From Isoetes taiwanensis (Eukaryota > Streptophyta > Lycopodiopsida > Isoetales > Isoetaceae): a DNA stretch of 64,000 nt. The stretch covers positions 5,388,653 to 5,452,652 of the forward strand of contig JAJEKV010000061.1 in assembly GCA_021234155.1 (NCBI GenBank), in the 5' to 3' direction. The translations under genes were made by a program, and so were the position numbers. Numbering within the stretch: the first letter of the stretch is position 1; every line of letters starts with the position of its first letter. Positions 22,991 through 45,253 of this stretch are shown piece after piece. Under the pieces are notes generated by a model, which made no database searches, was not told where the DNA came from, and was given only the letters and a program-made list of their open reading frames with translations.

Positions 22991-23351
22991 AGACCCTCCC
23001 GGCGGTCCTGTCGATCGTTCCCCTACTCCTCAGATTTAGAGTCGGTGTCGGAACTAGAGTTGGAGGAATACATGTTAGGTGATCTCCTTCTCCGGCTTCT
23101 CTTCTTTGCTTTGTCTGCTCTGCCGGCTGGTGTTTCAGGTAGTTGGACATTCAACCATCATTCAATTAAATTGGGATTATGTCTTAATTTTGGGACAAAT
23201 TTCATATTGTATGTTTTTTATAGCATATTCAAATTCACACAAACCACCTCAAAAGTATGAAATGTAATCTCATATTATTTACAAAATAGTCAATATTTCA
23301 CAATATAGCACCATATTATAAAAACGTGATGAAGAAAATTTACATAGTTGT

Positions 23352-26131
23352 TCACTTTTCTTCAAGCACCCCCAATGATATCATAGCCTTCTTCCTGACA
23401 TCCTGAGGTATTGTAATTCTCGCATTTCTAGCTGGAATAATGTTTGGAGTCCATGAGTACAATACACTTTCATAGTCTAGCCAAAGATCAAGATCACTCG
23501 GATTTCTCCTCCATCTCTTTGTCCAACAATCTGAGTACCTTTCTTTATCCGATACGTTAGTCAATTGATGCACTGGACACCACCATTCTATCCGCACATG
23601 GTTGAAGTTAATATTACCTTCTTCTTTGCAAATATCAGAGATGGTGAACCCCAACCACACTGGATAGGTATCTAAATCTGCTGGCTTTACTACCACAAAT
23701 TGGTGCTAGTTTTAGGCAACCACCCTTCTTTCAATTCATCTGAGGATGTGTCTATCTCCCCCAACAGGTTAATCACCTTCTTCCAGTAAGCCACCAAGGC
23801 ACGGTTGGTGTCATCGGGATTGGTTTGCCAATGCTTTATATAGTCCTGGATTCCTTCCTTAGTCAATCCCAATTGCTTCACTTCTTTAGTAGGTTTTAGA
23901 GCTTTTGGTTGACCTGGAGATATCATAAGCTTGCCATTCTCATTCTACGCCATATTTCCCCCCCTCCTCTCCACTCCTCCTCTAAAGGTCTCATCTTCCA
24001 TTGGAAGATTGGAATCCCCTTTCTCACCCAAAAAGTGAACTGCAGAGGCCTGGAATGACCTTCAAGATCCAATGCATAACTATCCACAAAGCTCTTCCAA
24101 TTGGGCACTTCTTCTATGAGAGAAACTATAAGGTTTGGAGTAGTGCATTCGTGCAAGATTTCCATTAGCCTAAGAAAGTTGGTCACTGTCTGTTGCTTCA
24201 GTATACAACTATATTTGCCAAATAATGCATCCACATCCTCATGGATATGCCCGGGCATCAGAAACCCTAAATTAACTCTTTCAAATATCCTCACAGCTGT
24301 TAAGTAGGATAGGAAAGAAAACATCCACCTGTGCACAATTATCAAGTTGCAAGAGGAACCTTTTGGGTAGATCTTGAGCTCTAGCACGTGAAGTTAAAGC
24401 TTTAACATGTTCACTAGACCCATGCTTCCTAAACCTTGCCTTGCTAAACTTTTCAATATTGTTAGGGTTTCCATCTAACAATGCACTATCTAGTGCCTGG
24501 CTAGCTGTAGGGTCCTGGAGGTGACCATTGTATCCATTTTCATAGTTTCTCAAACACCTCATGATATGAAAATCTGGACCATCACTCCACAACTCCAAAC
24601 TAAAATGGCCATAGTAGCATGCAAGATTGCCCCAGTCATTGAGATCTGTAAAGGGTATGATCTTCCACATGACCTTGGTATGTACTTGAATTGTGGAAGA
24701 CAAAGTCTTTTGCTGGTCCTTCTTGTCATGTATAATACATAAATAGTTATTAGGTTCCAATGCAGATAAAGTCCTCCACATCCAATAACATGATCTACAT
24801 GATAGTTGATCAGTCATATGGTCCTTCATATGCTCCCTTATCCTAGCCCGTTGACTAGGTTGCACAGTCTTATCAAGAGTCTCCTTCAACTTAGCACATA
24901 AATTGCACTTTGCAAAGTTGTTTGAAGTTGCTATGGTGACATGATTGAAATGCTTCTTCCATAGCCTACTAAAACTAGGTTGGGATATTGGAAGAATTTC
25001 CAATTCTCGAAGTAGGGAATTCACTTCCTCCAAAATACTCTTTTGAGTACAATGTGATGGTAACCTTTCCTCAACAACTGCTCTTCCCTTTTCATCCCTT
25101 CTGCTTTTATGTGGCATAGACTGCATTGAAATCAATATATTTTTCAAATATCTCCCTGGTAGCCAAGATCCTAGCAATTGGTCTCAACAAACCATTATTT
25201 CCATGCAAAGCAATCCTGTTCCCTTTTGCCTGCTTTTTTTTGCCAATTATGCCATGAAGAAGTTGGAATTGCATGAATATTCTGCCATGCTTTTTTGCTT
25301 TTCGTCTAACACCCTTCTTTCTTGCAGACATGGAAGAAGAGAAATGATGCAGTTCCCGGGCCCCTTTTTTTTTGTTAAAGAAGTTGTGGTCATGCCTCCG
25401 GGCATTTTTGTGTAAAAAATATTGTGAAAAGCCTTCGGGCATCTGATTACAAGCCTCCGGGCTCTGACATGTAAATGAATCAATTTTTGAATGAATTCAA
25501 AGTGTTTTCTCTAAGCAATTTTGTATCTCTAAAATTTTGTCTCTGCATTTGTCTCAATAAAGTCTGGGGAACACTATAAATCAACCGGTTGAAATTGCAT
25601 AAATAGAAAATTTCAGGCTCTAAACATGAGATATCTGATTCATCAAAGTAACCATAGAAAATTTTCCGATACGACCTAACAAAATTCTCCAACACTAAAA
25701 ATCATTTTTAATTGATGGCTGTAATTCAGCCTTGATAACAGGAAAACACATATAAAATATCTAAATTCTGTTTTTTCAAATGCAATAAATGGAATAAAAT
25801 GTCGTGAGAATTTATTGCATTAAATGCAATATTCTCCATATATACCATACATGTTATATCTGGCAGGAAGACCGTATGCCAGGCGTGTTAATTCAAGCAA
25901 TCAAATATTCACGCTTATTTATTTCTAATTATGCCTATATAAATCCAATTTCTACCTATTCTTCCTTTCTTCATACGATTTGCCGATTGCGCTTTTGTTT
26001 TGATCCGCCCTCCTAAAATCTTGGCGAGCAGGTTTATTTTCAGCAATGTTAGATGCTTCTTTGGTTTCGGCAATTCCTAATTTACTTGAAGACTCTGCCT
26101 TTTGTTCTGTAGCATCTGTAGCAGAGGACAT
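23352..26131 (-). pseudogene. DUF7869-like protein gene, decayed
   Basis: The minus-strand pieces, in order, are: a possible first exon (MSSATDATEQKAESS, 26131-25946) ending at an AG|GTAGAA donor; a basic segment (GKKKQAKGNRIALHGNNG, 25107-25442); a cysteine-bearing core (ISQPSFSRLWKKHF, FAKCNLCAKLKE, 24281-25177); LLQLDNCAQVDVFF; then FLMPGHIHEDVDALFGKYS (23923-24387), and a C-terminal YPVWLGFTISD/VRIEWWCPVHQ segment (23352-23696). The QLDN and GHIHEDVDALF motifs are the hallmark of DUF7869-type proteins and resemble an RNase-H-like transposase core. That parallel is my inference. Frames shift between pieces, so this is a decayed copy. The gene at 48.6-53.7 kb is a diverged relative. Confidence 0.65.
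25391..25463. repeat. three copies of a GCC-T/C-CGGGC palindrome
   Basis: CATGCCTCCGGGCAT (25391-25405), AAAGCCTTCGGGCAT (25428-25442) and AAGCCTCCGGGCT (25451-25463) lie within 75 bp. They fall in the 5' intron or upstream part of the DUF7869-like gene, between its possible first exon and the basic segment. Confidence 0.7.
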
Positions 26132-26427
26132 CGGTAGCAGAGGACATCGAAGCAAGCCTCAGAATTCAAGGTTAGTTCTGATTTAGTTTTAAGTTGCATG
26201 TCAATAGCAGATTTAATCCAAGAAGAGAAGCTCATTCATTTGCTCGAGGCAGAGGAAGCAGATGATGTTTATGAAAACCAGAATAGTTTTTTATAAACTT
26301 CATCTGCTTCTTTTTGTTTCGAGTAAATCCTTGAGTTTTTCTTTCTGAATGAATCATGTTGTTGCATGTAAGTTTCTATTATGAATAATAGAAAGCATTA
26401 GAAAAATCTCAAAGAATAAATTTGAAA

Positions 26428-26764
26428 CCCGCTAAGCGTGTTCCAATACACGCTAAGCTTAGCCTTGAATATGTATACACGCTCGGCGTGCATTCAGAAG
26501 AGAGAAAAAAAAAACCTATACAGATAGATAAGTAAATAGCTAAAGGCCAGGCAATTAATAACACGCTACTTATCTATCTGTATAGGTTTTTTTTTTCTCT
26601 CTGCTCAATGCACGTCGAGCGTGTATATTTTTTTCCTATATATCAGTTTACACGCTGAGCGTGTAAAAATTTTTATCCTTAGTTTCAATTCTTAGTTTAA
26701 ACACGCCGGGCGTGTCTCTTAGTTTCTGAGTTTATAAATAAATAAATATAACACGCCAGGCGTG
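26428..26764. repeat. dispersed CACGCNNNGCGTG palindromes upstream of the coiled-coil ORF
   Basis: Sites at 26428-26440, 26449-26463, 26478-26490, 26611-26623, 26651-26663, 26702-26714 (CACGCCGGGCGTG) and 26752-26764 (CACGCCAGGCGTG). Bases in the middle vary while the two arms stay complementary, as expected for selected dyad sites. The last site is 33 bases before the ATG of the ORF at 26798. Confidence 0.85.
26474..26627. repeat. 61-bp inverted repeat (hairpin) with 32-base loop
   Basis: Arms 26474-26534 and 26567-26627 are complementary with three mismatches. Each arm includes one palindrome (CACGCTCGGCGTG / CACGTCGAGCGTG), an A10/T10 run and CCTATACAGATAGATAAG. It could form a stable hairpin, act as a small-RNA precursor, or be a nested fold-back element. 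Confidence 0.85.
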
Positions 26765-26797
26765 AATACTGATACTCCTCTAACTTCCTATTGTTAG

Positions 26798-27307
26798 ATG
26801 CCAAGTTACATAAATCACCCAGTTGGTGAACAAGATGCAGTAGTGGGTTACGTCCATTTGGGGCAGCAATCACGCAGCCCGGCTCCAGTTGCGGCTCCAA
26901 GCTCCAGTCCGGTTGAAGCGCATCCGAGCACCAGTCCGGCTGAAGCCCCTCTGAGCTCAGCTCCAGTTGCACAAATCTTGCAACCCCTACAATACTTGGA
27001 TCAAGTGATGATGATGAATGCAGAGCGCAGGGCCATTTTAAATCTGGGCTCTGAGGCCCTTGAGATCACGAGGAGGCTGGCCGTATTATCTGACCACTTC
27101 GATAATGCTGTACACGCATTGATCGAGAGCGAATCTCGCAACCGTCAGCTTGAGATTCAAAATGAGAACCTTCGTTTCTTAGAGCCTCTATGCCTGCATG
27201 CCTCAACACGAACCACTACCGCAGGCGGCATACAACGCAATCCAGGAGCAGGAGGTGGAGGTGGAGCAGGCGGGGGAGGTGGAACTGGAGCCCGAAGTTT
27301 TACTTAA
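26798..27307 (+). CDS. coiled-coil protein with proline/serine-rich N-terminus
   Basis: An ATG-initiated frame of 169 codons. Residues about 25-65 are rich in Pro, Ala and Ser (APVAAPSSSPVEAHPSTSP). About 70-135 form a heptad-like amphipathic region (LEITRRLAVLSDHFDNAVHA, NRQLEIQNENLRFLEPL) suited to dimerisation. The C-terminus is glycine-rich (GAGGGGGAGGGGG). I do not recognise the family. It sits among palindrome sites, on the same strand as the ParB-like/FCP1-like gene, so a small DNA-binding or accessory protein is conceivable. That role is inferred from position. An AG lies just before the ATG, so it might instead be an exon. Confidence 0.45.
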   Translation: MPSYINHPVGEQDAVVGYVHLGQQSRSPAPVAAPSSSPVEAHPSTSPAEAPLSSAPVAQILQPLQYLDQVMMMNAERRAILNLGSEALEITRRLAVLSDHFDNAVHALIESESRNRQLEIQNENLRFLEPLCLHASTRTTTAGGIQRNPGAGGGGGAGGGGGTGARSFT

Positions 27308-28252
27308 AGAATTCACTATGCCCTGGAATGGAAATGGGAGTATCGATAGCCAAGCTACTCAGTAGACTGGGCTTGAAAAAGTAGATTTGGCTTGAAACAG
27401 TCTGGAATTTTGTATGTCTGGTTTATCCAGATTATATATAATTGTAAAATTTTGCCAATCAATACAACAAATTTTGTCTACTTCTATATTTCTACAATGT
27501 AATACATGTTACATACCTTTTTTAAGCGGTTTCTTGGCCATGCAACAAAAGTTCCAACACTTTCACCAACCTTATCCCCACCGGGGTCTTTGCGAGGTAA
27601 AGCTTCATCCATAGCGCAGCAGTTAATCACTATAACTCGGACATCCTTATCCCCGAGCGGAATTCCATGACAGTTTGCAGTCGGATCGATGGAGTCGATC
27701 TTGCATATCCTACTTTCCTTTTCTGATTTGTAGTTAACATGAAATATTCATCTTCGACACTGCAGACAATTGCCTATGCAGACACCTACTATTGGAAGTT
27801 ATTGTACAAGCTATAGAAATGAGATGCGTACCAGAATTCTGTAGCCATTCTTGAGAAGTCGATTCGAGTTCCCGAAATCACAGGCGCTATGGAAACGCAG
27901 GCAGTCGGGAAAAATTCGAATTAGAAGAAAGATTAGGTTAACTACGTTTAGGTGGGATAAATGTAATCAATGAAAGAACATGGTAGATTAGTTTTTAAAA
28001 ACTCAATGAAAAAAGTCGACGGAGGGGTTCTTTTTTTTTCTTTGAAAGTGAATCTTCGTCATTATTATTTTTATGTGTCAATAATATTTCAAAACTGCAT
28101 ATTGAGTTTTCTTGAAATTCAAATTTCTCGTACAGGTAGAAAACGCTATTTCTTGGCAGCTATTTCTCGTATAGGTAGAAAAAAGCTATTTCTTCAAGCA
28201 ACTCGAGCGCTTATCCGAGCGACCTTCCGACTCTGTTACTAGGCGACTCTAG
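27308..28252. other. spacer between the coiled-coil ORF and the ParB-like/FCP1-like gene
   Basis: No coding region supported. It should hold the coiled-coil ORF terminator and the promoter of the next gene. Two CTCGTATAGGTAGAAAA-type direct repeats lie at about 28128-28185. No copy of the palindrome family was seen here. Confidence 0.4.
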
Positions 28253-28591
28253 AGATGTCTTCTAAAACGAGAGGTGGTCGAGGCGGACGGGGCCGAGGAA
28301 GCGGTGGCAGAGGAAACTCAAAACCCGGCTCTTTTCAAGTTTCAGAGGACGTTGATCAGACCCCTATTCAATGTACTTAATTTGCCACAGAATACAGTAT
28401 TATGCTTTGCATGAGTTTGAGTTATTTCCTTGCAACATACAAGATATATTACCTTCAGTTAATGCTCTGATTGTCTGTTTTTTAGAATATAATTTTGCTC
28501 TGTTTTTTAGAATATAGTTCTTAGTAGTTTTTAACAGAGGGGTACACACCCATTGAGAATCTAATTCTTAGTAGTTTTAAATAGCGAGGTT

Positions 28592-28807
28592 CATGCCAAG
28601 CGTGAACTGGAGGTTTGACAGGTAGAGATAGCAGTATTCAATAAGGTTAAATAGTGTGAAATATGGATGCATAAAGGATACGTAGCTTAAAAAGTGGATG
28701 CATACTAATTTAGCTTCAAATTCACGCCAAGCATGGTTCACAATAGGAGCTACCAACACGCCAAGCGTGAATTATACTAATTTAGGTTTAAATTCACGTC
28801 AAGCGTG
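28592..28807. repeat. CACGCC palindrome cluster in intron 1
   Basis: CATGCCAAGCGTG (28592-28604), CACGCCAAGCATG (28723-28735), CACGCCAAGCGTG (28757-28769) and CACGTCAAGCGTG (28795-28807), each followed or preceded by AATT-type sequence. All lie within the intron between exons 1 and 2 of the fusion gene. Confidence 0.85.
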
Positions 28808-30056
28808 ATCTCTTGTTCTAAAAAATTTTATCTTCTTTTGCAGTGCCCAAGAGGAAGAAAACCCCTAATAATTCGAGGTCTATTCCTGGTAAGAAACCAA
28901 GGGTAGACGACCCAGATGTAATACCATATGATCTTACCTTAGATGATGAAGGGCCTATTCTTATGGCAACCACTGACCCTGCATGCCCTGAAGAGGAAAT
29001 GGACGAGGGTGCCGAGTGATACGTTGACCTCGCCAAGACAAATGGCAAGCTCGACTTAACGCTCTTCTCCAGGAAAAAAGAAGCAGACAAGATGACCAAA
29101 CAAGGGATCCTAATCTCTCGTGAGGAAGAGGACGACACCAACTGCAAATTGCTCTTGGAGATGACACGTAAGCAGAAGAAAGATCTGCTCAGACTTACTC
29201 ACTGTAGAGCTACTGCATACAAGGATACATTCATGAAGACAGATGTAAACGGTGAGACATGTTTTAAGTATGGCTGGCCCACCAATGTAGCAGTTACACC
29301 AATATCTATTTGCCAAGGGGTTATAGCTGTGCATAGAGGTATGTTCAATAAACCGACACCAAGTCACTATTTGCAGCAAGCTAGGGAATTAGCTGACTTG
29401 AAAGCTTCTAGGAGACTCCTAAATCTAGGGAAGGATGTTCAACCTGCAGTTGTCGAAGGCATGGAGGCTTCTGTTTTTGAGAATGAACAGGACAGGGTGG
29501 CGCAACTAGAGGCCATGAACAAGCTGAATAAGTAATCTGACCATTATCCATTGGGTCTTAAGGAAACTTTTCAGATCCATGTGAAGTCCCTCATCCGTTC
29601 ACCAAGCTCCATTTATGTTATTAGAAGATATAATCCAGCACATGCCATGGAGATAGTTCAGAGCATGATTAGTAATCCAGGTCAAATGCCTATGCCAGCG
29701 GATGTGTTACCTTGGGATATGATCTCGAACAAGCCTGCTATGTGGATGAACGTCGAGGAGTTATTATTAAATGATGACATTAAATTCGTCATCATCGACG
29801 GGCAGCATTCCGTTGAGGCACAAAAGGCCCTCATCAGGCAGGCAAAACAAACAGGCCAAACCGTGTTCTACAATCACTATGCATATAGGAGGTGTCGACT
29901 CTTGGATGCCAATACCTCACCTGCAGATTTGGCTGAGATTAGTGCAACTTTGAATGAAATGGGGAAGACATTTCTATACAAAAGGTAATTAACTACATTA
30001 GGATGTTATCATTTTAATATTCAGGCAGCTTAAATCAATTGAATTCCGTCGTCAGT

Positions 30057-30164
30057 TTCCAAATCAAACCAATTCACGCCAGCGCAGCTAAAAGCAAAAC
30101 AATTCACGCGCGTGAATTGTTTTGCTTTAAAAGCACGCCTGGCGTGAATTGGTTTGATTTGGAA
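30057..30164. repeat. spacer-less ~54-bp inverted repeat in intron 2
   Basis: Sequence starting TTCCAAATCAAACCAATTCA mirrors itself about position 30109-30110, where AATTCACGCGCGTGAATT is a perfect 18-bp palindrome. A few mismatches lie in the middle of the arms. Such a sequence can extrude as a cruciform, and it sits directly at the start of the 32-bp tandem array. Confidence 0.8.
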
Positions 30165-30441
30165 GCACGCCTGACGTGAATTCAATTGATTTAGAAGCAC
30201 CCCTGGCATGAATTCAATTGATTTAAAAGCAGGCCTGGCGTGAATTCAATTGATTTGAAAGCACGCCTGGCATGAATTATTTTGATTTGAAAGCACGCAT
30301 GGCATGAATTATTTTGATTTAAAAGCACGTCTGGCGTGAATTCAATTGATTTGTAAGCACGCCTGGCGTGAATTGCTTTGTTTTAAAAGCACGTCTGGCG
30401 TGAATTGCATTAGTAGCTTAATTCATTTCACGCTAGGCGTG
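30134..30441. repeat. tandem array of nine 32-bp units, each with a 13-bp palindrome
   Basis: Palindromes start at 30134, 30166, 30198, 30230, 30262, 30294, 30326, 30358 and 30390, an exact 32-bp period. They are variants of CACGCCTGGCGTG separated by AATTCAATTGATTTGAAAG-like spacers. A tenth site, CACGCTAGGCGTG, lies off-phase at 30429-30441. The array fills intron 2 (29985-30530) of the fusion gene. The spacing equals three helical turns, so all dyads face the same side of the DNA. Confidence 0.95.
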
Positions 30442-32578
30442 CTTTCTATGTTCATCAATTCAGTTCTATTCAAATCGCGCCCGGCATGTTTCTGTTCTAT
30501 AATACCGATTCAATGTCTGTAGAATTGTAGTCCATACGTGGAGCAACTGCGCCACGCCCGTCAACAGTGGGTGGATTATGGCTGCCCATTACCCATCAGA
30601 CAGGGCGGGTCAAAGTCTGAGGCATTCAAGCTGCTAGAGCGGACTCTGTCGCAGACAATTATACAGGAGAAGAAGATGACTGCAAGAAAATCAAAGAAAA
30701 AAGATGGTGATGATATTGCAGATCCTTCTGATAGCACATCTAGCAGGTCAGGTCCAACAGACTCGTATAAGATTGTCTTTTGTAAGGAGGCAGTATGGCG
30801 GAATGAATTCTGGGACGCTTATGCACAAAGGAAGCTGCCAGATACTATGGGTGATGTAAGCATCTTTGACTTGAATGTGCCAGAGATGAGAAAGACTCAG
30901 GGGCTAGACGGCACTGAGACCATTTGGGTTTTAGACCAGAGTTTGAATGAGGAAGTCTTATACAAGAAGAGTGCTTTCACTAAGGATAGGATGTCCTTCA
31001 TTGAGTGCTATAGCCATGTGAAGAATGTACGTACAATGAAGTCAGTTATAGGAGCTGAGTTACAAAGGCTATCGAGGGATGTGGCATTATCTGAAATTGG
31101 ATTGCTGGACAAATACAAGGTCAGTAATGATGACATCAAGAAGTTTGTATTCTAGTCAAAGGACTTCCCAAAGAATTGAAAGGCTAAAAATGCAAAACAT
31201 AAGGAGACTCTACCCCCTAAGGTTCTGGCCGAGTTGAGAAGAAAAGTGGCCCTTGTGAAGAAGATTACTGGAGAAGAAGACACTGTCCAGTATTCAGTCT
31301 CCATTGGGTACAAAGGTCTCTTGCCAGAACCAACTCTTTCCAGAATCACTCTTTGTGTTGGACAGCAGGGGTGGGAGAGGAGATATGGGCATGAACCAGA
31401 AGGACTACAACATCTTCTTTACCAGCTGTATAGGATTGACAACTGAGAGGTCCTTTACTATTGTCATCGTTTATCCTTCGGGTGACTCACATCTGCATGC
31501 ACTATCCGCTGCTTATGATCTGGAGTGCCTCAAAGTTATTAGGGAGGGATGCCTAATATATGATGTTAAGGATAATGAGCTACGAACAGTACGGAAGATG
31601 GCACATGTGATCTTTATTATGGTATCCATGCTGTCAGCAGTCAGACGAGGAATATGATAATGCTAAGGCCAAGGGTGACAATAGCAGTGCATGGGAATGT
31701 TTTCTTCTAGATGATCCAGACTTAACAACTATATTCTATTATACGGATCAGGATCAGGATGAGTCAGAAGAGAATGAAGATCGAGACCCTCTCCTAAGTG
31801 GTGAAATCAAGTACGAGCTACTAACTAAGGAGAAAAGCCCCTTAAATAAAAATGGATTTCCCCCATCTGTGGCTACTTACCTCGTCGAGGCATTTGCTCC
31901 AATTCATACAACCTACTTGGAGCTTCATGTTGGAGGTTATATTGCCTGAGAGGCTCTTATGGGTGTTAGAATATGTCACTGCTTTGTGAGTGATGAGCAC
32001 GTCAAAGACTTTCTTGAACCATTCCTCATGCATGTACTTGTCAAATCTCCTAAAGGCCCTTATGGCAACCTGAAATCTTCAGCAATCAAAAGTCTCGTGG
32101 ACTTGTCCAATTCAAAAATGGACGATGGTTCTGGTGAGGGAACTAGTAATCTGCAGCCTGATATGGAAAGCAATGACCAAGTGGCTGCTAAACTGGCTGC
32201 TCAAAGTAATGTGATGAAGGCGAACATAGGGAATATCCTTGCCTCCCTTGCGGGTGATGCAAGCAACAATAAAATAGATTCACAGGTTAACAAGGATCTA
32301 ATTGATAAGGCAATCGAGAGTGAAGGTGCCATTGGCAACCCAAGCGACTCTAGTGATACACAGGTTTGCCAAATCAATACTAAAATAATGTCAGTTGTGA
32401 AGGACGTACAGGAACTAATAGAAAATAACAATTCTAACAGTCAGAAGAGCACGAAGATTAAGGGTGGCGAAGGGGAGAATGACGCTGATGACGGCAGCGA
32501 AATTGAAAATGATAGGTATGGCCTTGCAGATAAAATTGCGCCACGCGGGATTTAATTTATCTTAGCTTTGAATTAAAT

Positions 32579-32670
32579 CGCGCCAAGAGTGCTTTGATTA
32601 TATTTCGTTGTCACACTAAATCACGCCGAGCGCGATTTGGTTAAGACTAACTCAAATCACGTCTGGCGCG
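32579..32670. repeat. palindrome cluster in intron 3
   Basis: CGCGCCAAGAGTG (32579-32591), CACGCCGAGCGCG (32622-32634) and CACGTCTGGCGCG (32658-32670) lie inside the 32516-32725 intron. They are more degenerate than the intron 2 set. Confidence 0.75.
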
Positions 32671-33299
32671 TTTGTATTGTTTGTGTGATCATATCTTGAT
32701 GACCAGAACATGTCTGATGTTTCAGCTTGCCTTGCGTTTCTAAGAAGGTTGTAGTATTCGACCTAAACGGAGTCCTTTATATGACTTTTCTGAAAAATAA
32801 AGTGGCTAGAGATCAGTTTCATTAGACACCAGTAGAATCAAACATCAAGTGGATCTATCCGCGACCGCACTTGAAGGAGATGCTAGATGAGGCATTCAGG
32901 TTATTTCGAGTTGATATTTGGTCATCCATGGAACTAAAGAACATCAAGGATACTTTGGAGGCACCGGGGGAAATGCATAGACATTGGTTGACCTTTTGGG
33001 ATCAGAACAAATGTGTGAAGTTCACTAATCCCAAGGATCCAACAGGCAAGCCTATCTTCATCAAACACTTGAGTAACATGATGGATGAACTTAGTATCGA
33101 GGATAAGGATGATATAATCATAGTGGATGATGATGCTCTCAAATGCTTCTACAATCAAACGCAGGCCCTGGATCCACCATCTTACGATCCAAAAAATTTT
33201 GCGACGGATGATTTTCTGGTGAAGTTTATGTCCATTATGAATAATTTGGCTATGGGGATGACGGTGCATGGTGTTAGATTCACACCCAGAACTGGATAG

Positions 33300-34071
33300 A
33301 ACGGCTGACATGGAACCACACCTTGTTAAATACGTGGAAAATATGGATTGATCCCTTAATGTTTTATTTGAATATATGATATTTTTGTATGATATTTGTG
33401 TCATGTATCGATAATTTCGGGTCTGCAATTGCCTCGCAAATAATGCAATCTGTTATTATCAAACCTAATATTTTCATCTAAATGCTGTTCAATTTTGATC
33501 TCATCTATCTTAGCAACTTGCGCTTCATTTTTGCATATTTCAATTCACATATGAAACGACACACGTGAATTGCAACCTTATGTTATTTATCAAGTCCAAA
33601 AAAAAAGATTAAAAAACAAAAACCCCCTAGAAGACAACAGCAGGTTGGCGTGATTTTGGAGTTGACATAATCCCAATTTAATTGGATGATGGTTATTCTG
33701 ATCTGGTCCCATTGCTGCCGCTCCCGCCAGCAAGGCTCTTATTTCGTGGATATCCGACCTTATCTACGATATTTCTTCGTCTGGGATTGGTGCCGCAAAC
33801 TCCTGGAACAGGTTCCTTGGCTGAAATTGCCTTGCAGGTGTTTGATCTTCCAGAGGTTGTCTATCTTGTTCCACATTCCTAGGTGCTCTAGCTGCATATT
33901 AGATTGCACTCTGATGATTAGCTTTTTGTTTGTTATTGCATTTGTTTCTTTGACGGTATAGTTGTGGGGACAAAATATATCAAAAGAACATATGTAATAC
34001 CATCACTTATATTCATAAGATATAAGATTTTTACATTCAATAGTAGAAATAGAGGATTAAAAAGTTTAATT
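33300..34071. other. convergent spacer between the plus-strand fusion gene and the minus-strand gene
   Basis: AT-rich DNA with no supportable gene. It holds the 3' ends of the two convergent transcription units. Confidence 0.4.
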
Positions 34072-35600
34072 CTATTCTTGGAATCTTCTATAAGTTGGGT
34101 TGTCCTCCAAGAACTTCTTCACTTGGGTTGTGCCAACTGTTCGCCCCAAGTTCCTAAGGATGTTGGTGGCCGTGCCTCCTTGGAGTGCTGTCACCAAGTC
34201 TTCGACCCTCCTCTCCGATGTGTAGGCTGCGGTGACGGCCAACCTGCCCTGTCGCCTATAAGGGACCGCAAAGTCGAAGATGCTTAAAGCTATTGTTCTC
34301 TTGACCAGGATGACATGGTCGATGTTTGGGGGCATCCGGGCATGTCTTCCGAATCCTGAGAGGGCAATCAGCATGAAAACCCCTTCTTCTCCACGTGGAC
34401 TGAATTGGGGGTGTATGAACGCTATCCTTCCATCAGTGAGCAGTGGCAAGTAGAACCTAAGGGCTTTGTCATGCCCTGCCTCCCCTGCCTCCTCTTCAGT
34501 TCTGATTGCAGCCCTGTGTCTTCCCGCATATTCGTCCACTGGTACTGCTATCATCTCCCTGTAGTCGCCAAACATAGACCTAGAAGAGGTCAAGTTGATA
34601 CTGCCTCTTTCCTGTCCGACTGGTGCTACTGCAGAGATGTTGGGTAGGAGTGCACTCTTTGTTTTCCCTCTGATTCCCATCCGCTCTTGGAGCGATATGA
34701 ACTCCTCCTCTGAGGGTAGCTCCTGCTGAGTCATCATCTGCCTAATGCCGGTGTAGGTTTCGATATCTGTTGATGACTGGCCAGTGTACGTCCGGGCCTC
34801 CCTTATACTGATGGGAAAGTCCTGAGTCTCCCGGTCGATGAAGTCATCGAGGTCGGGCTACTGGCGTAGGAGGTGTAGGAGCTCGTCTATCCTGTAATCC
34901 CTGTCCCTGCACTCATGGAGGTTGTTGATGTTGTGTAGGGTCAGGTATGCTTCCCCTTGAATGATAATCGGGATTAGACTCGTGATGCCTAGCCCAAGTG
35001 GTGGAGTTGTCCTTATCGCTCTTAACCCTTCTTCGAAGCTCGGGAGGTCTTCTTCGGCTTGCTGCCTTTCCTGTGTGGGGTCGACGTCGATGATGTCTTC
35101 CACGTCAGACCCACATCCTTCCTCTTCCTCCTGCTCTGCCTCTTCATACTTCAGACGCATCTGCTCCTCTTTACCTGCTTCCATGGCCATGGGCTCAAGC
35201 TCTAGAGGTTGAACAGAGGGTTCTCCTATTGGGTTTGGGCTCTTTGGGACAAGAATATAGCTATAGCTGCAGTGTAGGAGAAATATCTCCTCCTATTTAC
35301 AGCTACAGACATGTAGTTGGGCATGCGGGTAGCCTTATTTTCTAGGTACTTGTCTATTTTTTGGATGTCCTGCAGAGCTGCACGAAGAGCCATGCTAGGT
35401 GCAAAATATCCTATGCAGGGGGGAAGTTCTACTAGAGAGGGCCCTATCTTGGCATGGAACTCTGTCATGATCTCTTGATAGAAGGGAGTAACATTGATGG
35501 TGGCATCCACATCGATCTCCTTCTGAAAGACAGCGAAGACCGAAGCTTCAACCACATGAGCAGTGGCGCTGTACCATCGCCTGAATGCAGAGGTTGCCAT
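34072..35600 (-). pseudogene. unrecognised island gene with acidic middle region, broken
   Basis: The start ATG at 35600 lies 112 bases downstream of a TATA box. The first block (35600-35226) reads MATSAFRRWYSATAHVVEAS to AAIAIFLSQRAQTQ, then a stop. A frame change leads into an acidic block (EEAEQEEEEGCGSDVEDIIDV, 34858-35190) ending in a TAG. The same frame then continues from 34737 to 34072 (KTKSALLPNISAVAPVG, ALRFYLPLLTDGRIAFIHP, NILRNLGRTVGTTQVKKF). Reading through the breaks would give a protein of roughly 500 residues without introns. I recognise no family. It shares its promoter layout and flanking palindromes with the histone-H3-like gene upstream, which suggests both belong to one element. 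Confidence 0.5.
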
Positions 35601-35711
35601 GATGCTAGAGCTGCTGGGATTATCAAACAGATATGGAAGCCCCTCTGGGAGCTGAAAAATCGCCTTGGAGTGAGGAGCAGTAGAGTAGGGTGCAAATGAG
35701 GGTTGTGGTCC

Positions 35712-35719
35712 TATTTATA
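35712..35719 (-). promoter_or_regulatory. TATA box of the 34-35.6 kb gene with nearby telo-box motifs
   Basis: TATAAATA on the minus strand, 112 bases before the ATG. AAACCCTA-type telo-boxes lie at about 35723-35730 (read on the plus strand) and 35746-35755 (read on the minus strand). The same arrangement recurs upstream of the histone-H3-like gene. Confidence 0.65.
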
Positions 35720-35891
35720 GGCAAAACCCTAATTTGGGGAAATTTTAGGGTTTGGGGATATCTATCAGTTTGAGGTGCTGCTATGCAATTCATAGGTAAT
35801 CTAGGTTAAAGAGTGCATCCTAAGGATTTTATTGCAACAAATTTCACCTAATTTGGAGGTAGTTGGGATGAGTTAGGGCCATTTTGGTCTG

Positions 35892-36166
35892 ACCACTCAC
35901 AAAGTGCGCGAGAGCCATTTTCAAAAAGTTTGGAAGTGCTCCTGGCGCACTCTGTGAAGGGTGGGTTCCTGTTTGGGTCCAAGATGGCTCAAAATTTACA
36001 ATCTAAGGGTAGAATCCTACTTATCTCGGCGAGTTAGGACGATTTGTGCCCTTACTTTCTACATTTGGCCAAGTCTGGGCAGAGATCAGTGGCCGACCAC
36101 TCACACAGTTCGCGAGAGCCATTTGCAAAAAGTTTGGAAATGCTCCTGGCGCACGCTGTGAGGGGT
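35892..36166. repeat. two ~75-bp dyad repeats with CACTCACA...GTGCGCGAG arms
   Basis: Copies at about 35892-35965 and 36097-36166 share CCACTCACA, GCGCGAGAGCCATTT and CAAAAAGTTTGGAA, and end TGCTCCTGGCGCAC with TGTGA-GGGTGG. The ends of each copy are inverted repeats of each other. A third, partial copy (CCACTCACACGTGCGCGAG) lies at about 37692-37725. They flank both minus-strand genes of the island. Confidence 0.8.
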
Positions 36167-36311
36167 GGGGTCAAAAACTCTGACTTTTTGCCCAAATTAG
36201 GTAATTCCAATTGCACATATCATTATTACAACCTTATTACTTACAATTTTGCACTTCAACTTTATCAAAACATATTTTTATATTTACAAAACGTTTTGTA
36301 GTCACAACAGG

Positions 36312-37471
36312 TTAACAATCTATCTTTTTAATAAACCTAGCTAATTTCATATCCCTAGGCATACAAATTACTCTCTTTGCATGGAGAGCACATGCTAGAG
36401 AGTCTTCGAAGTGCTGGACCAGCTTTTGCTCTGCTGCCTCCTGCAATGCGAGTAACATATCGTCTGTTACTCTCTTGGTGCTGCCGAACTCTTGTAAGAT
36501 TTCCCTTGTCAATCTTGCGAAGGCAGCTCTTGGTATCAGCAGTCCGTAGCTCCTCTCAAAATGACGGATCTCCCGAGCAGCTCTTGCAAAATAGGAGTCT
36601 GCCTTTCTCTTCATCGGCTTCTTCGGGGGTACGGGTCTCTCCGGGGGCGGCTTCAACGTGTTCTTCTTGGATGGCCTTCCTCCCTCCACGTATGTTACCT
36701 TGTGTTCTTCATAATATTTGGAGTATTCCTCGTACATTTTCATGTACTCGTTGTACTCCTTCAGCTTCTTCCTGTACCCTCGCTCATGCTCTTGAGTACG
36801 TACGACTCCCGTGCCGGCCTGCCCTTCTTCGGATCTGCGGTCGGCTTCGGCCACTTGGGGTATGGGGGTGCTGCTGCTGCAGATTCCTCCTCCTCAGCAT
36901 CCACATTCGAAGGTCCCGAGCCTTCTGTTGGGCGGGGGACCCTTGACTTATCTTCGTCTGACTCAGTGTCTGATGACGATGATGGCGGCCTGTCGGGCTT
37001 CCGCTCCCTTATGATGACCCCCTTTGCCGGTGTTGACTTGGTTTTGCGCCGGGGTTTCTTGGGCACTTCGGGGTCCTTTCCTTTCTCCTCCCTCAACGTT
37101 TGGCGCTCCTCCCTCAATCTCTTCCGCTCCAGCTTCTCTTCAATCCTCTTCCTCTTTGCTGCTCTCTTCCTTTTTGCCATCTTCTTCAATTTACGTACCA
37201 GCTCCTCTGGTAGTTCTTCGTCCTGGTCATCCTCGTTTTCTCCTCCATCGCCCTGATTCTCGGGGTTTTCCTGATCTTCAGGGTTTTGGGGATGTTCTTC
37301 CTCGTCCTGTTGCTCTTGATCCTTCTCCTCAGCGTCAGGATTCGTGCCCGAGTTTTCTTCTCGCCTGGCTCGCTCCCGAGCCTCTCTGGCCTTCTGTTGG
37401 GCTGCAAGGACCTGGGCGTTGATATAATCATCTGGCACTACCATCCGAGCGGTTTGTTTGGTGCGGGCCAT
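36312..37471 (-). CDS. long histone H3-like protein: H3 tail, charged linker, divergent H3/CENH3-like fold
   Basis: ATG at 37471 in a good context (AAAACATGGCC), 105 bases after a TATA box. The protein starts MARTKQTAR, identical to the first nine codons of histone H3 including Lys4, then continues MVVPDDY. A highly charged linker of well over 200 residues follows (KKMAKRKRAAKRKRIEEKL; acidic Glu/Gln/Pro runs). After a one-base frame change near 36780-36855, the second frame gives YNEYMKMYEEYSKYY and a C-terminal histone fold: AREIRHFERSYGLLIPRAAF (alpha-N/alpha-1), LALQEAAEQKLVQHFEDSLA (alpha-2), then ALHAKRVICMPRDMKLARF (alpha-3). LLIPRAAF is closer to plant CENH3 than to canonical H3. Total about 385 residues, against about 136 for H3. 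It is either a real expanded H3 variant with a sequencing or recent frameshift, or a young pseudogene. No intron is needed. Confidence 0.8.
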
Positions 37472-37575
37472 GTTTTGAAATAAGCTGATCGCCTTCCGAG
37501 CACCTAAAACTCGCCTTGTTGGACGGAGAGCAACTAGCTGAAGAAGGAAAGTGAAAATGAAGAACCCTAATGGTC

Positions 37576-37583
37576 TATTTATA
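37576..37583 (-). promoter_or_regulatory. TATA box of the histone-H3-like gene, with telo-box
   Basis: TATAAATA on the minus strand lies 105 bases before the MARTKQTAR start. A CCAAACCCTAAAA telo-box sits just upstream (37597-37609). Telo-boxes are common in plant histone and growth-related promoters. The match with the promoter at 35.7 kb extends over the TATA box, its flanks and the telo-box. Confidence 0.7.
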
Positions 37584-37969
37584 GGTCTGGGGATTTTAGG
37601 GTTTGGACCTGCAATTTCACGTCGTACCATTCTGTAAAGCATTAGTGTTTGTAGGATTAATACATTGGGTTTGTTTAGGCAAAAAGTACCCACCACTCAC
37701 ACGTGCGCGAGAAGCATTCTCAAAAGGAGGCTTTTGTTGAGAGCCCAAAATGTGTAGAAACACTATGTAAGACTCATTCTAAGACGACAAAACCACGTTT
37801 TATCTTCTATTCCATGTTGTGTAGTAGTGTGCTAAATTAGATCGGTGCATTTATTGGCTCCCCATTTGGACTTGGATTCCAGGGGGGTATTTTACTCGTG
37901 GAATAGGGGTATTAGACTCGGGGTTTCGGCATGCATACTTATTCCACAAGTCGAATACCCCCAAAGTTA

Positions 37970-39200
37970 AAAGGGAAAATTCCATATATACCCTTGAAGT
38001 TTATGAGATTTCCAAATTTCCCCCTCAAGTTTTGTTAATTCCAAAAATACCCCTCCTAACTATCTACATGAACTAGTTAAGAGAGCTAAACTCTACAAAT
38101 TCCAAAAATACCCTCGTGTTCTTAGTCAGCATTTCAAATTTACCATTTACATTTTTTGAAATTCCAAACACACAATTGAATCATCAAAATGAAGACAATG
38201 AGCAAATTGTTTTATAATGCAGAATCAAATAATATTTTGTCGAACCAAATTTTCAGAAATGCACAATACTTTTCCATACCAATTTTCAGAGATTAGACTT
38301 GCAGAATACAAACTTCGGTGTACAGAATCCTACACCATTAACTTATCGGCTCTCGACAACTCTTTCGATTATGCCCTGCTTTACTACAACAACTACAATG
38401 AAGAGGACGTTTTTCCTTGCCATTATCTTCTGTCCGAATTCTTCTCTTCCTTGGGCGTCTCGGAGGTCTACGTGTCTTTGGTGGGAGCAATTTCTCATCC
38501 CCTTCTTCTTCTTGCCACTGTTCTCTTGGAAGAAGAGGGTGAATAATGTGAGAATAGGTGTCACAGTATGCTCTCAATGTATATGCGTGAATTGCATATG
38601 ATTGGATACGATCTTTCTTGAATAAAATAGCGGCAATTACATGTGAGCATGGTAATCCACTTACTTGCCACACATTGCAAGAGCAAACTCCTGTTTCCAT
38701 GTTCACCACGTGACTAGACTTTTGTGACACAATCTCAAACTCATGATAGGTGGCAGGAATAATCCGATAATACCTAGCGCGTTCATATGCATTCTAGATT
38801 TGAAGCTCTGCACTAGCCACAAGCATATATGATCCTGCTTCTCCGGCAGCCTGTAAGGTCAACTGGGCTTGTTCTCTACATTCAAAGAACCATTTCATCA
38901 ACTTCTGACGTATCCCCTTAGATTGCTTGCAAGTAGGTAATTATCTGGAAAGAAACGAAATGGGGAAGACACATTACCTGCATGCGAATTCGTTGATGAA
39001 TCGGGAGATCCCAGGGTAAGAATTCAGGTTTTCTCCACCGCTCTTTTCTGCTCTTCTGTTGCCGCTTTTTTTTTTCCTTAACTATTTTTAACGGATAATT
39101 GTTAATTTGGTTAGTGAAGGGTATATTTGGAATTAAGGAAATTTGAATGGCAAAATTGGAAATCCCATAAAATTCAGGGGTATTTTTGAATTTTCCTAAG
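37970..39200 (-). mobile_element. MULE (Mutator-like) remnant with long inverted ends and transposase C-terminus
   Basis: The minus strand at 38338-38730 encodes a SWIM zinc finger (CSCNVWQVSGLPCSHVIAAI) and a zinc knuckle (CSCCSKAGHNRKSC), the typical C-terminus of MuDR/FAR1-type transposases. The catalytic DDE part is missing. Flanks at about 37972-38130 and 39075-39200 are inverted copies built of GGAAAATTC, AATACCC and GGATTTCCAA-type motifs, consistent with the long inverted ends of a MULE. No exact 9-bp target duplication was found. An internally deleted, non-autonomous copy. Confidence 0.6.
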
Positions 39201-39211
39201 TTAGTTTTAAA

Positions 39212-39367
39212 ACTTATTCCACATGTCGAATACCCCCAAAGTTAAAAGGTGGGCTCGAAAGTTAAAACTTATTCCACAAGTCGAATACCCCCAAAGTTAA
39301 AAGGTGGGCTCGAACTCGCATAAGAAAGTTGAAAGCCAAATAAACTAACCATCTGCGCCATGCAACA
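39212..39367 (-). mobile_element. tRNA-derived SINE-like head with RNA polymerase III boxes
   Basis: On the minus strand, an A box TGGCGCAGATGG (39350-39361) and a B box GAGTTCGAGCCC (39307-39318) lie 31 bases apart, a spacing seen in tRNA-derived SINEs. No anticodon arm can be folded, so it is not a tRNA gene. The body contains two tandem copies of CTTTGGGGGTATTCGAC-TGTGGAATAAG. A third copy of that unit lies at 37937-37974, just outside the MULE. Confidence 0.55.
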
Positions 39368-40417: not shown

Positions 40418-43400
40418 ATGAGCAGCATGGAAGCAAAATCAGATACCCAAGAGGCCTACACACCGGTTGAGCAGCAGAATCCAGATAATGAGGAACCTGA
40501 AGAAAAAAAGGAAGCAAAGGCTCCAGACCCTGCCATTTCTTTCTATAAGCTCTTCGCTTTCGCAGATAAGTTGGACTACTTTCTCATGTTTGTTGGGAGC
40601 ACAGGAGCCATTGTGCAAGGCCTGGCGCGACCTATCTTCTTAGTGCTTCTCTTCGGATACCTGGTTAATAGCTTTGGTAGTTATACAGAAAACCCTGCAA
40701 AGATGTATCATGAAGTCACAAAGGTTTCTTTTTAACCTATAGTCACAGTCCAATTTCATGCGTAATCTGACCCAGAACAAACTTTTTTTGGCAGTACGTT
40801 TTATACTTCGTCTATCTGGGCATTATAAGCTTGGTGGCATCTTGGGCAGGTCTTGCATTATGAGTTTTGTCTTTATGAGGTATGTTTGATTCCTACTTTG
40901 ACCAGCTTTTCTTTATGCTTAAATTCGAACAGAAGTGGCATGCTGGATACAAACTGGTGAGCGTCAAATAACGAGAATGAGAATTAGTTATCTTGAGGCA
41001 ATGCTTAAGCAAGACATTGAGTACTTTGATGTGGAGGGAATTGCCAACAAGCTAGTGGAGAGTATGAACACTGATACCTTGATCATACAAGAGGCGATTA
41101 GTGAAAAGGTTTTTTTGGTTGAAAACCATGAATTCTGCAAGTTTAAACTACTGGAAAAGCTGCATGAGACTCAGATTCCCAATTTTGTTTCTCACTGACA
41201 GATGGGTGCATTCATACATTCTATGTCAACGTTCCTGGGAGGACTTATACTGGGGTTTGTAACTGTGTGGCAACTTTGTCTCTTAACAATAGCCATTGTT
41301 CCTGTCATTGCTGTTTGTGGAGGGTTATATGCCTATGCGTTGATGGGTGTCAATTCGAAGAGCCAGGCAGCATATGCTAATGCTGGTGGCATTGCAGAAC
41401 AGGTATTGTTTAGCTCGGACAATCACATATGACATACCTAACCTGATGCACTACATTACAGGCAATTTCCCAGGTACGAACCGTGTATTCATTTGTGGGA
41501 GAAGCAAAAGCAACCAACTCCTACACCGAGGCACTTAAGTCCACAGTTAAACTAGGTTATAAAGCTGGATTGGCCAAGGGCATAGGAGTAGGTGTCACAT
41601 ATGGAATTCTCTTTTGTTGCTGGGCACTACTGCTCTGGTATGGAGGTGTCCTTGTCAGGAAAGGCACTGCTGATGGAGGCAAAATCCTTGCAGCAATATT
41701 TGTGGTCATCGTAGGTGGCCTGTATGTCCATCAGTTCCAGCCTTGCAAAATCATTCGTTAACACTGATTTTATTTCTCTACTAACACCATGCTTTATTTT
41801 CTATATTTGAAGTGCATTGGGACAGGCCTCTCCGAACTTTGAAGCCTTTTCAAAAGCAAGAGCAGCTGGATATCAAATTATGGAGGTAATCAACCACAAA
41901 TCTACCATGAACGAGGATTGCTTAAAGGGAGAAGTGCTTCCTGTTGTGCAAGGAAATATCGAGTTCCGAAATGTTTCCTTCAGCTACCCATCAAGACCTG
42001 GCGTGGCCATCTTCCAGAACCTCTCCCTCAGAATTCCTGCAGGGAAGGTGGTGGCTGTTGTGGGAGGTAGTGGTTCTGGAAAGAGCACCATTATTTCTCT
42101 TATCAACAGATTCTATGATCCTACATCAGGTACAATCAGATTTACATAGAAATTGCATCAGGAAGCCACTAAAAAACATTCTTTTTAAAGGGAGTGTGCT
42201 GCTGGATGATCATGACATTAGGACTCTACAATTAGTTTGGCTCAGAGCCCAGATGGGTTTGGTCAGTCAAGAGCCAGCTCTTTTTACGACAACAATCGAA
42301 GAAAATATCCTGCATGGGAATGAGAAGGCAACCATTGAGGACATAGAAAAGGCTGCAATGTCTGCAAACATTCATGACTTTATTAGCCAGCTTCCACAAG
42401 GGTACAAAACTCAGGTTTGACATCTTTTCACGTAAACCTTGGAAATGCACATCACAATATCATCGTCAGCATGATCTCATGTTCCATACTGACAAACCAA
42501 AATTATAACAGGTTGGTGAAAGGGGCATCCAACTTTCAGGTGGCCAAAAGCAGAGAATAGCAATTGCAAGAGCAATGCTGAAAAGCCCTTCAATTCTTCT
42601 TCTCGATGAAGCGACCAGTGCATTGGATGCCGAGTCGGAAGAAACAGTGCAACAGGCCTTAAATAAACTAATGAGAGAAAGAACAACAGTAATTGTTGCC
42701 CATCGTTTATCTACAATTCAAGATGCAGATATCATTGCTGTGCTTCAAGAAGGTGTTATTGTTGAACTGGGCACACATGATGAACTGATCGCCAAAGGGG
42801 ATCTTGGAGAATATGCAGCTCTAGTGAAGCTACAAGAAGGAAGTGATAACGCAGAAGCCAAAACCTTTTCCAGGTTGATGCTATTTTTGCAACTCCAGCA
42901 CAGGAATGGAATGTAATCTGATTTATCTTTTCTTTGTATTTGCAGGACACCAACTATGACACCAAGAGGTGGTTTTACGTCACCAAGGACACCACCAAGA
43001 GGTGGTTTTACATCACCAAGGACACCAAGGGGTGGTGGTTTTACATCACCAAGGACACCAAGGGGTGATGGATTTTTGCCACCAGGGAGCCCAATGGGGT
43101 TTTTGTCACCAAGGAGTTTCTTGTCACCAAGGAAAAGACTAGATGGTACTTCACAGTTTAGTTTTAAGCGAATAGAGAGTTATGTCACAGAGACTTATGC
43201 CCCAGAGAGTTATATCCCAGAGAGTTATATCACACACCAGTCCAGCACAGGCTCGGATACAATGTTGATCCAGGACAAACCCAAAAGCAAAGCATATTTT
43301 TGGCGCCTATTGAAATTAAATGCACCAGAATGGCCCTTCTTTACAGTAGGAGCAGTGGGAGCAATGTTTTCTGGGGTTGTTGCACCTGTATTTGCCTACC

Positions 43401-45253
43401 TTATAGCCTCAAACATGAAGATGTACTATGATACAGATTACCATCGCATGAAAAGGGAAATTGCGAAGTTTTCTATTATATTCAGTTGTGTAGGTGGTGG
43501 AACTTTCATAGCGTACTTTGTAGAACAATTCTTTTTTGCCATTGCAGGAGAAAACCTAACAAAACGTGTACGAGAAGCAATGCTTGGAGGTATGTTAGGA
43601 GGTTAGAATCATTAGTAGTGTCTGGCTAATGCAAACTAATCACTGCATGTGTTCCACTGCAGCAATATTAAGAAATGAAGTAAGCTGGTTCGACGAGGAT
43701 GAGAACACTAGCAGTCAACTTGCATCCCGGTTGGGTTCAAGAGCAACGTTAGTGAGAGCTGCTATGGGAGATCGCATTGGAATGATTGTTACAAACGTAA
43801 CATTGTTGATCACTGCTTTCCTCATTGCATTTATTGTGCAATGGAAAGTTGCCTTTGTCGTCGGTGCAACTCTACCACTACTTGTCGCTTCAGCCGTGAG
43901 TGAGGTACAAATATTTAGATGAGACTTTGTTCAATCTTAATGGGAAAACAGTATGCTTATTCATTGATTGTGTTACAGCAATTATTCCTGAAAGGTTTTG
44001 CTGGAGACATAGCCAAAGCACATGATAGAGCAACCATGTTGGCAGATGAAGCTATATACAATATTCGTATTGTAAAATCTTTTCACGCTGAGAAAAAGCT
44101 AATAAATCTCTTGTCTACAGAGCTATCTGGGCCTAAACAAAGCAGCTTTCTTCGGGGACAGATAGCTGGGTTTGGCTCTGGCATAGCACGACTGTTTCTC
44201 TTCTGGTCTCATGGTTTAGGACTGTGGTATGGTGCTCGGTTAATAAGAAATGGCGAGGCAACCTTCGGAGATGTAATGAAATCATACTTTATTCTTATCA
44301 TGACATCATATGCAATAGCAGAGACAATTGGTTTGGCACCAGATATTGTGAACAGCAATAATGCTATGCGCTCTGTTTTTGAAATTCTTGACCGTAAGAC
44401 AAAGATTGATCCAGAGGACCCTGCAAGCGAGCACATAAATGAAGTAAAAGGCGATATTGAGTTTATAAGAGTGGTGTTTTACTATCCATCTAGGCCTGAT
44501 ATTCCTGTGTTCAATAATCTAAATTTGAAACTGCATTCAGGACGTACGCTTGCACTTGTAGGACCCAGTGGATCAGGAAAGAGCTCTATAATATCACTAG
44601 TAGAAAGATTTTATGATCCTGTTGCTGGTGTAATCCTTATTGATGGGAAGGACATACGCAACTTGAACCTCAGATCATATCGAAAACATGTTGGTCTCGT
44701 TCAGCAGGAACCTGCTTTGTTTGCAACTACCATTTATGAAAATATAATCTATGGAAAAGAGTACGCAACAGAAAATGAAGTGATTGAGGCAGCCAAAGCA
44801 GCTAATGCTCATAACTTCGTGAGTGCACTGCCAGATGGATACAAAACACATGTGGGTGAGAGGGGCGCACAACTTTCAGGAGGACAAAAGCAAAGAATAG
44901 CTATTGCCCGTGCAGTCCTAAAGAATCCAGCAATATTACTTTTGGATGAAGCTACGAGTGCCTTGGATGCAGAGTCTGAGCACGTTGTACAAGAAGCTCT
45001 TGATCGACTTATGAAGGGAAGGACAACAATAGCTGTGGCGCATCGTCTTTCTACTATTAAAAATGCAAACAAGATAGCAGTAATACAAGATGGAAAGATC
45101 ATTGAACAGGGTAAGCATGAGGACCTTGTTAAGGATGAAGAGAGTGCATATCATCGTCTATTCAAGCTTCAACAGGGGAGTAAAAGAGAAAGCAGAAAGG
45201 CTAATTATCTATCAAAAACACCCCAAGATAGCTCCCATGATAACAGGCAGTGA
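40418..45253 (+). CDS. ABCB-type (P-glycoprotein/MDR) full-length ABC transporter, gene 2
   Basis: A multi-exon gene beginning [16 protein letters not shown], with an acidic N-terminus and TMD1 from 40540 ([14 protein letters not shown]). NBD1 has Walker [10 protein letters not shown] (~42065), a short 62-base intron at 42130-42191, Q-loop [13 protein letters not shown], signature LSGGQKQR (~42535) and [12 protein letters not shown] (~42597). A repetitive linker (42958-43090) precedes TMD2 ([17 protein letters not shown]). NBD2 has GPSGSGKSS (~44562), [14 protein letters not shown] (~44873) and [13 protein letters not shown] (~44930). The stop is at 45253. All ATPase motifs are intact. One TMD1 stretch ([20 protein letters not shown]) departs from the usual TGD-V-RISSD form kept in gene 1. 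It is a paralogue of the gene at 8.5-13.2 kb with matching exon layout; the substrate is unknown. Confidence 0.94.
42958..43090 (+). repeat. in-frame minisatellite encoding TSPRTPRGG repeats in the ABCB linker
   Basis: About four in-frame copies of a 30-36-base unit (ACACCAAGRGGTGGTTTTAC) encode GGFTSPRTP-type repeats between NBD1 and TMD2. They are followed by [18 protein letters not shown] repeats at about 43170-43230. SP/TP sites recur, so the linker may be a phosphorylation target. Gene 1 lacks these repeats. Confidence 0.85.

Follow-up and report, generated by a model that had tools for sequence, protein, structure and literature searches.

Mobile elements are silenced through marks on the tail of histone H3. 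A precedent for a transposon with its own H3-like gene dates from 2013: H3L, in a hAT transposon of Pyrenophora tritici-repentis (PMC3538342, in its available text). A histone H3K9M peptide, ARTKQTARMSTGGKA, has been crystallised with G9a (PMC5030085, in its available text). H3 borne by a transposable element is already known; what is new in the present case is that the H3 gene stands first in an abundant LTR retrotransposon lineage of a plant and is under selection there. The word "histone" does not occur in the available parts of the Isoetes taiwanensis paper (PMC8566536) and the Isoetes sinensis paper. In searches of open PMC papers for H3-carrying elements, judged by title and start of abstract, LTR elements with such a gene are absent from the results.

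The H3 fusion and the retrotransposon lineage that carries it

The window, a stretch of 64,000 nucleotides from the lycophyte Isoetes taiwanensis (the first-pass annotation had wrongly supposed a fern), contains an H3-fusion ORF at 36312-37471 on the minus strand, recognised from the ORF list and from profile and genome searches as the first ORF of a branch C retroelement, with one frame change. The N-terminal residues of histone H3, MARTKQTAR, begin at an ATG at 37471 (37445-37471, minus strand), and translation and the branch C alignment put Met next, where H3 has Lys9. A charged linker (36761-37444, minus strand) continues the open frame of the tail (36761-37471), and the H3 fold occupies another frame (36312-36893), with 92 open codons at 36315-36590 on the minus strand. 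A profile search of this C-terminal block, proposed earlier as a check, matches the core-histone family PF00125 (Histone) with E 2e-19 and 70.5 bits, and H3 chains in PDB are matched with E 1.7e-20; the arrangement first read from the letters, MARTKQTAR at an ATG, a charged linker and then an H3 fold, is borne out by the ORFs and by this Pfam match. Branch C departs from canonical H3, which has about 136 residues with tail residues 1-38 contiguous with the fold.

The frame change between linker and fold, also noticed at first reading, is real here and is private to the window copy, being absent from other C copies. An intron at this point was considered and rejected, as the fold frame is continuous there in at least nine of 20 family loci (L030, L033, L034, L035, L038, L041, L042, L044 and L045). 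Other C copies read through from tail to fold without a break in frame, so the frame change must count as damage particular to the window copy. Single-frame copies holding both parts are found at C907:46167956-46169119 and C907:46751453-46752616 (478 codons each), in C423 (453 codons) and in C1018 (L037, 417 codons). Sharing one open frame in these undamaged copies, tail and fold belong to a single polypeptide, with an N-terminal extension and a C-terminal H3 fold, and the possibility that they belong to separate genes is excluded.

The label "CENH3-like" is not supported, since H3 and CENH3 lie at about the same distance from the fold. Against two host H3 proteins the window fold scores 202-203 (54%), against rice CENH3 187 (55%) and against Arabidopsis CENH3 176 (49%), the CENH3 reference sequences being provisional. 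Folds of five branch C representatives are 52-55% identical to host and Arabidopsis H3, and 55-58% and 49-51% identical to rice and Arabidopsis CENH3, respectively (again against provisional references); folds of six A/B/D representatives are 85-88% identical to host H3. In a phylogeny with H3 and CENH3, branch C falls outside CENH3, with no CENH3 grouping, and the loop-1 insertion is absent; the comparison is only as good as the CENH3 and other non-host reference sequences, which are provisional. Judged by eye, the C fold presumably keeps His113/Arg116/Asp123-type residues. A viral sequence collection scanned with the window fold, by a scan that detects close relatives only, gave no confirmed relative.

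Within a chromodomain-type Ty3/Gypsy LTR retrotransposon lineage, the H3 gene occupies the first ORF position, between primer site and gag, with a conserved ORF2 after it. The element order is LTR, primer site, H3-fusion ORF, ORF2, gag, protease, reverse transcriptase (RT), RNase H and integrase with chromodomain. Twenty loci of 10 kb (L009-L028), taken from the histone-search list and mostly chosen for long open frames, all contain Ty3/Gypsy LTR retrotransposons. Similarity among copies begins at TGTGACGTTCC in 13 of the 18 loci examined; the LTR has the form TGTGACG...CGTCACA and is followed by the 12-mer TGGTATCAGAGC, which is found in 12 of the 19 A/B/D loci tested and in the C locus L038, there as a primer site 718 nt before the ATG. 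We take this 12-mer to be complementary to initiator tRNA-Met. Where both are marked (nine loci), the H3-fusion ATG lies 596-761 nt beyond the primer site. The evidence for pol and the chromodomain comes from one branch B element, with the window copy contributing gag and protease: Pfam finds capsid/gag, aspartyl protease, RT (7e-39), RNase H and integrase in Ty3 order in L019, and its 3' continuation, L050, holds a chromodomain (PF00385, 8.3e-9). The second LTR, in L050, shows 48 mismatches to the first over about 1622 ungapped columns, the LTR being partial in the sequence examined. Related copies thus hold the LTRs, primer site, Ty3-order pol and integrase chromodomain by which such an element is recognised. 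The first-pass annotation had proposed an element-borne H3 derivative with a readable tail far from the nucleosome; that part of its reading was right, and can now be specified as the first ORF of a Ty3/Gypsy element.

Four branches are recognised. Branch A (L009-L012, L015-L018) starts MExxK, branch B (L013, L014, L019-L025, L027, L028) starts M[PSM]RFKLT where readable, and branch D (L026) starts MANTK (MANTKSAP); branch C, that of the window, has MARTKQTAR, the charged linker and a fold with 54-55% identity to host H3. Branches A, B and D share a conserved N-domain ahead of the fold, for which Pfam gives nothing at E 0.1 and PDB at best an unconvincing match at E 0.34. The H3 tail is not N-terminal in A and B loci, and branch B has an internal STGGK- or TTGGK-like stretch with no preceding ARK (by eye). 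The branch D N-domain has at least 150 matches in the genome at 78-100% identity, most of those among the top-scored being free of stops, so that D is an abundant H3-carrying branch.

The window copy and its surroundings

ORF2 of the window copy (34075-35600, minus strand, ATG at 35600) encodes a protein of no assigned family; its reading frame shifts between 35226 and 35292 and is interrupted by an in-frame stop at 34855-34857. It is related to its A/B/D counterparts, with E 2e-10 and 23% identity over 213 columns at best, and ORF2 is present in 19 of 20 A/B/D loci, L019 being the one that misses it. A search against Pfam gave no match at E 0.1; a match to TAF8 (E 0.089) is treated as chance, and the C-terminal part has no match in PDB at E up to 10. 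The idea of an H2A-like partner histone, seen by eye, was dropped at an hhalign probability of 0.2 of 100 (with provisional reference histones).

The gag and protease of the same retroelement type lie at 21437-22962 (minus strand, 48% to L019), and no further pol was found in the window with the L019 pol as query. A TIR DNA transposon with 31-bp inverted ends and an ATTC duplication sits between ORF2 and gag (23153-33694); in the branch C copy L049, gag follows ORF2 directly, without this transposon. Homology of the window to other C copies begins at 37725-37727 and extends through ORF2; the window copy yielded neither an LTR nor a primer site. Because of the order of the genes, we infer that the H3 gene, ORF2 and gag of the window were once one element. 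Within branch C the window copy is old and broken, a DNA transposon separating its ORF2 from gag, and its H3 gene is a retroelement gene rather than a lone host gene.

Several other repeats surround this copy. The TIR transposon (10.5 kb) carries a DndB/DGQHR-like ORF at 29536-29988 (Pfam DndB 1e-4, below the Pfam cut-off) and a CTD-phosphatase-like ORF (NIF 4e-10), and a genome search with it gave 126 matches, with 23 candidates scored, the window's own included; the DndB and NIF genes were rejected as parts of the H3 element, as they sit in this separate one. A MULE-like remnant at 37874-39310 has a SWIM zinc finger (1.5e-8) between inverted ends of about 88 nt. Capture of the H3 gene by a MULE was likewise rejected, since the SWIM fragment, at 37.9-39.3 kb, has inverted ends of its own and does not overlap the H3 gene. 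Two ABC-transporter-like genes (by eye; 8504-12452 on the minus and 41195-45253 on the plus strand), inverted and 73-77% alike, border the element-rich middle of the window, and an inverted pair of 345 nt (2833-3177 and 21095-21439) is 98% identical, its second member adjoining the end of the gag-protease remnant.

A TATA box had been reported upstream of the H3 ORF and is indeed present, at 37575-37584 on the minus strand (CTATAAATAG), where motif and alignment of copies mark a possible internal promoter; it is kept as TATAAATA in 11 of the 15 branch C copies aligned there, the window included. ORF2 has its own TATA box by motif (35711-35720, minus strand), present in 14 of 15 aligned C copies. 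The DNA upstream of the C H3 ORF resembles that upstream of ORF2, with a local score of 99 against at most 75 in 200 shuffles (plain, not dinucleotide-preserving). Self-comparison reveals a repeat unit with inverted CTCGCGCAC / GGCGCAC motifs ahead of ORF2 (35891-35968) and a second copy of it, 91% identical, at 36095-36172; alignment places the 5' homology limit to other C copies, with remnants of the repeated CTCGCGCAC motif, at 37680-37727. Inverted CTCGCGCAC / GTGTGAGTGG motifs recur upstream of both C-element ORFs (35890-36172 and 37680-37727), and several other C copies have additional such motifs upstream, about 210 nt apart. Among 14 A/B/D loci tested, TATAAATA lies near the LTR start in 11, and between the LTR-start site and the H3-fusion ATG in none. 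It is possible, judging from these motifs, that the H3 ORF and ORF2 of branch C each have an internal promoter.

Copy number, tails and selection

The genome searched comprises 1,658,258,908 bases in 1110 contigs. A histone-family profile search gave 8704 first-look candidates, and the best 150 were scored (all E <= 2.2e-39). The first 15 of these behave like host H3 genes, their match beginning at profile position 2 and scoring 164-165 bits, and eight of them (L001-L008) read MARTKQTARKSTGG...; the remaining 135 start at profile positions 4-25, many in open frames of 300-494 codons. Used as a query, the window fold has at least 150 matches in the genome (78-100% identity, window included), and tail plus linker at least 162. 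The H3-fusion element is present in hundreds of copies or more in this quillwort genome.

Fourteen C loci, the window among them, align over the ATG; six have MARTKQTAR exactly, and several of the changed tails look like products of CpG decay (CGC to TGC). Residue 9 can be read in 10 of these loci, four having been set aside for indels in or just before it, and is Met in seven, Val in three and Lys in none; with Met9, the branch C N-terminal peptide is ARTKQTARMVVPDDY. Sites that exactly encode MARTKQTAR followed by Met or Val number 120 in the genome, against 0 in a reversed control, and therefore are not due to chance. At least 18 of the 100 such sites listed have an H3-fold match downstream on the same strand, and in these linked sites the distance from tail start to fold is 702-888 nt. 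Sites with MARTKQTAR-Lys9 at an ATG number 1051 (reversed control 0), and five of the 100 listed are, by comparison of coordinates, starts of full host H3. Because only 15 of the best 150 histone matches resemble full host H3, most of the 1051 are probably not directly followed by a canonical H3; given their number, loss of Lys9 may not be general.

In branch C, tail and linker have a pN/pS of 0.275 (data from 16 of 20 loci), the second part of the linker one of 0.109 and the fold one of 0.090 (20 of 20 loci); choosing loci by H3 similarity lowers pN in the fold. ORF2 gives 0.25 in its N part and 0.21 in its middle, and neither the C linker nor ORF2 served as a criterion for choosing loci. The same C DNA in wrong frames gives 1.1-2.9, and intergenic DNA 0.65-0.98. 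Values for branches A and B are biased by a choice of loci that also favored long open frames: in A, the fold has 0.011, the linker 0.16, the N-domain 0.30, ORF2 0.54, gag 0.52 and a piece of RT 0.44, and in B, the fold has 0.066, the linker 0.31 and the N-domain 0.18. Figures for gag and pol are probably inflated by broken frames. Within branches, pS is 0.25-0.6. Purifying selection acts across the H3 fusion, because pN/pS is well below that of the wrong-frame and intergenic controls. No extra constraint is found on the C tail, with pN/pS of 0.29 for codons 2-10 against 0.23 for codons 11-56.

Proposed roles and comparison with known systems

On balance we favor the reading that the H3 fusion of the retroelement enters host nucleosomes and there tethers the element or evades K9/K27 marks. 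Its likely role, inferred from sequence, would be to form nucleosomes as an H3 that either holds the element on chromatin or protects it from silencing, and the element seems to come with chromatin machinery of its own. The fusion would pair with host H4 by means of its kept fold (near-canonical in A/B/D) and so enter nucleosomes. The extension would then either tether the element nucleoprotein to chromatin or yield nucleosomes unable to take K9/K27 silencing marks; the latter is proposed because canonical residues 9-38 are replaced or rearranged in the branches read. The free H3 N-terminus of branch C (ARTKQTAR), with Met or Val at residue 9, may be recognisable by H3K4 enzymes and readers.

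A function as chromatin tether or targeting factor is possible, although we would not bet on it: the fold would anchor in nucleosomes, the extension or ORF2 would recruit integrase, gag or element cDNA, and the integrase chromodomain may read the element-loaded nucleosomes. The occurrence of H3 fold and chromodomain within one element lineage agrees with such a tether, as do ORF2 as a conserved partner and an A/B/D N-domain that is conserved while lacking a Pfam match (E 0.1) or a convincing PDB match, but two of the three methyl-lysine cage aromatics are missing in the one element chromodomain read (by eye, against HP1).

That the C protein acts as an anti-silencing decoy seems unlikely. By analogy with H3K9M, which traps Clr4 and G9a, its ARTKQTAR-Met9 would trap SUVH/KYP-type H3K9 methyltransferases, and the element would reduce H3K9 methylation in cis or trans. 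Met or Val in place of Lys at residue 9 in every readable C locus (7/10 and 3/10) suits this proposal, and in the available texts of the respective papers H3K9M dominantly blocks H3K9 methylation in fission yeast (PMC5030085) and the geminivirus protein TrAP inhibits KYP (PMC4606454). However, phospho-S10 or S10D weakened the H3K9M trap (PMC5030085, in its available text). Position 10 in branch C is Val where H3 has Ser, the sequence beyond residue 9 differs from H3, some C copies have Val9, Lys9 sites outnumber Met/Val sites by 1051 to 120, and the tail codons are under no special constraint. Val9 is not a known inhibitor. A composite of these ideas, a plant LTR lineage that encodes its own H3 against heterochromatin, with Met9 of branch C as a natural H3K9M-like trap on a long spacer attached to a nucleosome-forming fold, is a shade less likely still.

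Passive capture, with a transduced H3 that rides along without function and is open only through recent amplification, is very improbable: H3 capture by a fungal hAT element is known (PMC3538342, in its available text) and the window copy itself is broken, but pN/pS of the fusion is far below 1 at pS of 0.25-0.6, with controls near or above 1, and the H3 ORF is followed by ORF2 in diverged branches. Scarcely credible is a domesticated host H3/CENH3 variant gene with the element copies as its pseudogenes, for which speak the separate TATA box, a clean ORF in some copies and a few motifs in common with Arabidopsis CENH3 (EIRHF, LLIP; provisional reference), and against which stand at least 150 matches per search, the retroelement features next to the copies read (LTR, primer site, gag and pol), and the lack of a CENH3 grouping.

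If the fusion is indeed a nucleosome-forming H3 of the element, an element carrying such a conserved fusion together with an integrase chromodomain would have a direct counter-move or a targeting device at the level of H3 marks. Branches with different tails (MARTKQTAR-Met/Val in C and other starts in A, B and D) would provide a natural series for the study of tail function. Elements of this kind can also inflate the number of histones counted in lycophyte annotations.

Canonical H3 and CENH3 have the H3 fold in common with the element proteins, in which the tail instead leads into a long charged linker or is replaced by a novel domain. With H3K9M histones (PMC5030085, in its available text), most readable C copies share ARTKQTAR followed by Met9; the branch C version is natural and element-encoded and has other residues beyond 9, so that the resemblance is one of sequence alone. 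Plant chromoviruses share with the Isoetes lineage the order gag-PR-RT-RH-IN and an integrase chromodomain (PMC3350952 and PMC2864245, in their available texts, and partly general background), to which the Isoetes lineage adds two ORFs, placed after the primer site and before gag and headed by the H3 fusion. The term "additional ORF" has no occurrence in the available texts of PMC3350952 and PMC2864245, nor "histone fold" in that of PMC3350952. The closest parallel in gene content, the H3L hAT transposon (PMC3538342, in its available text), likewise has an H3-like ORF between element ends together with a further ORF of no known function, and it too has multiplied; ESTs of H3L exist. It is a fungal DNA transposon with 26 very similar reference copies, and its available description mentions no giant extension. 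The Isoetes elements, in contrast, are plant LTR retrotransposons in several diverged branches under long-term purifying selection, and their fusion places about 230-370 residues ahead of the fold.
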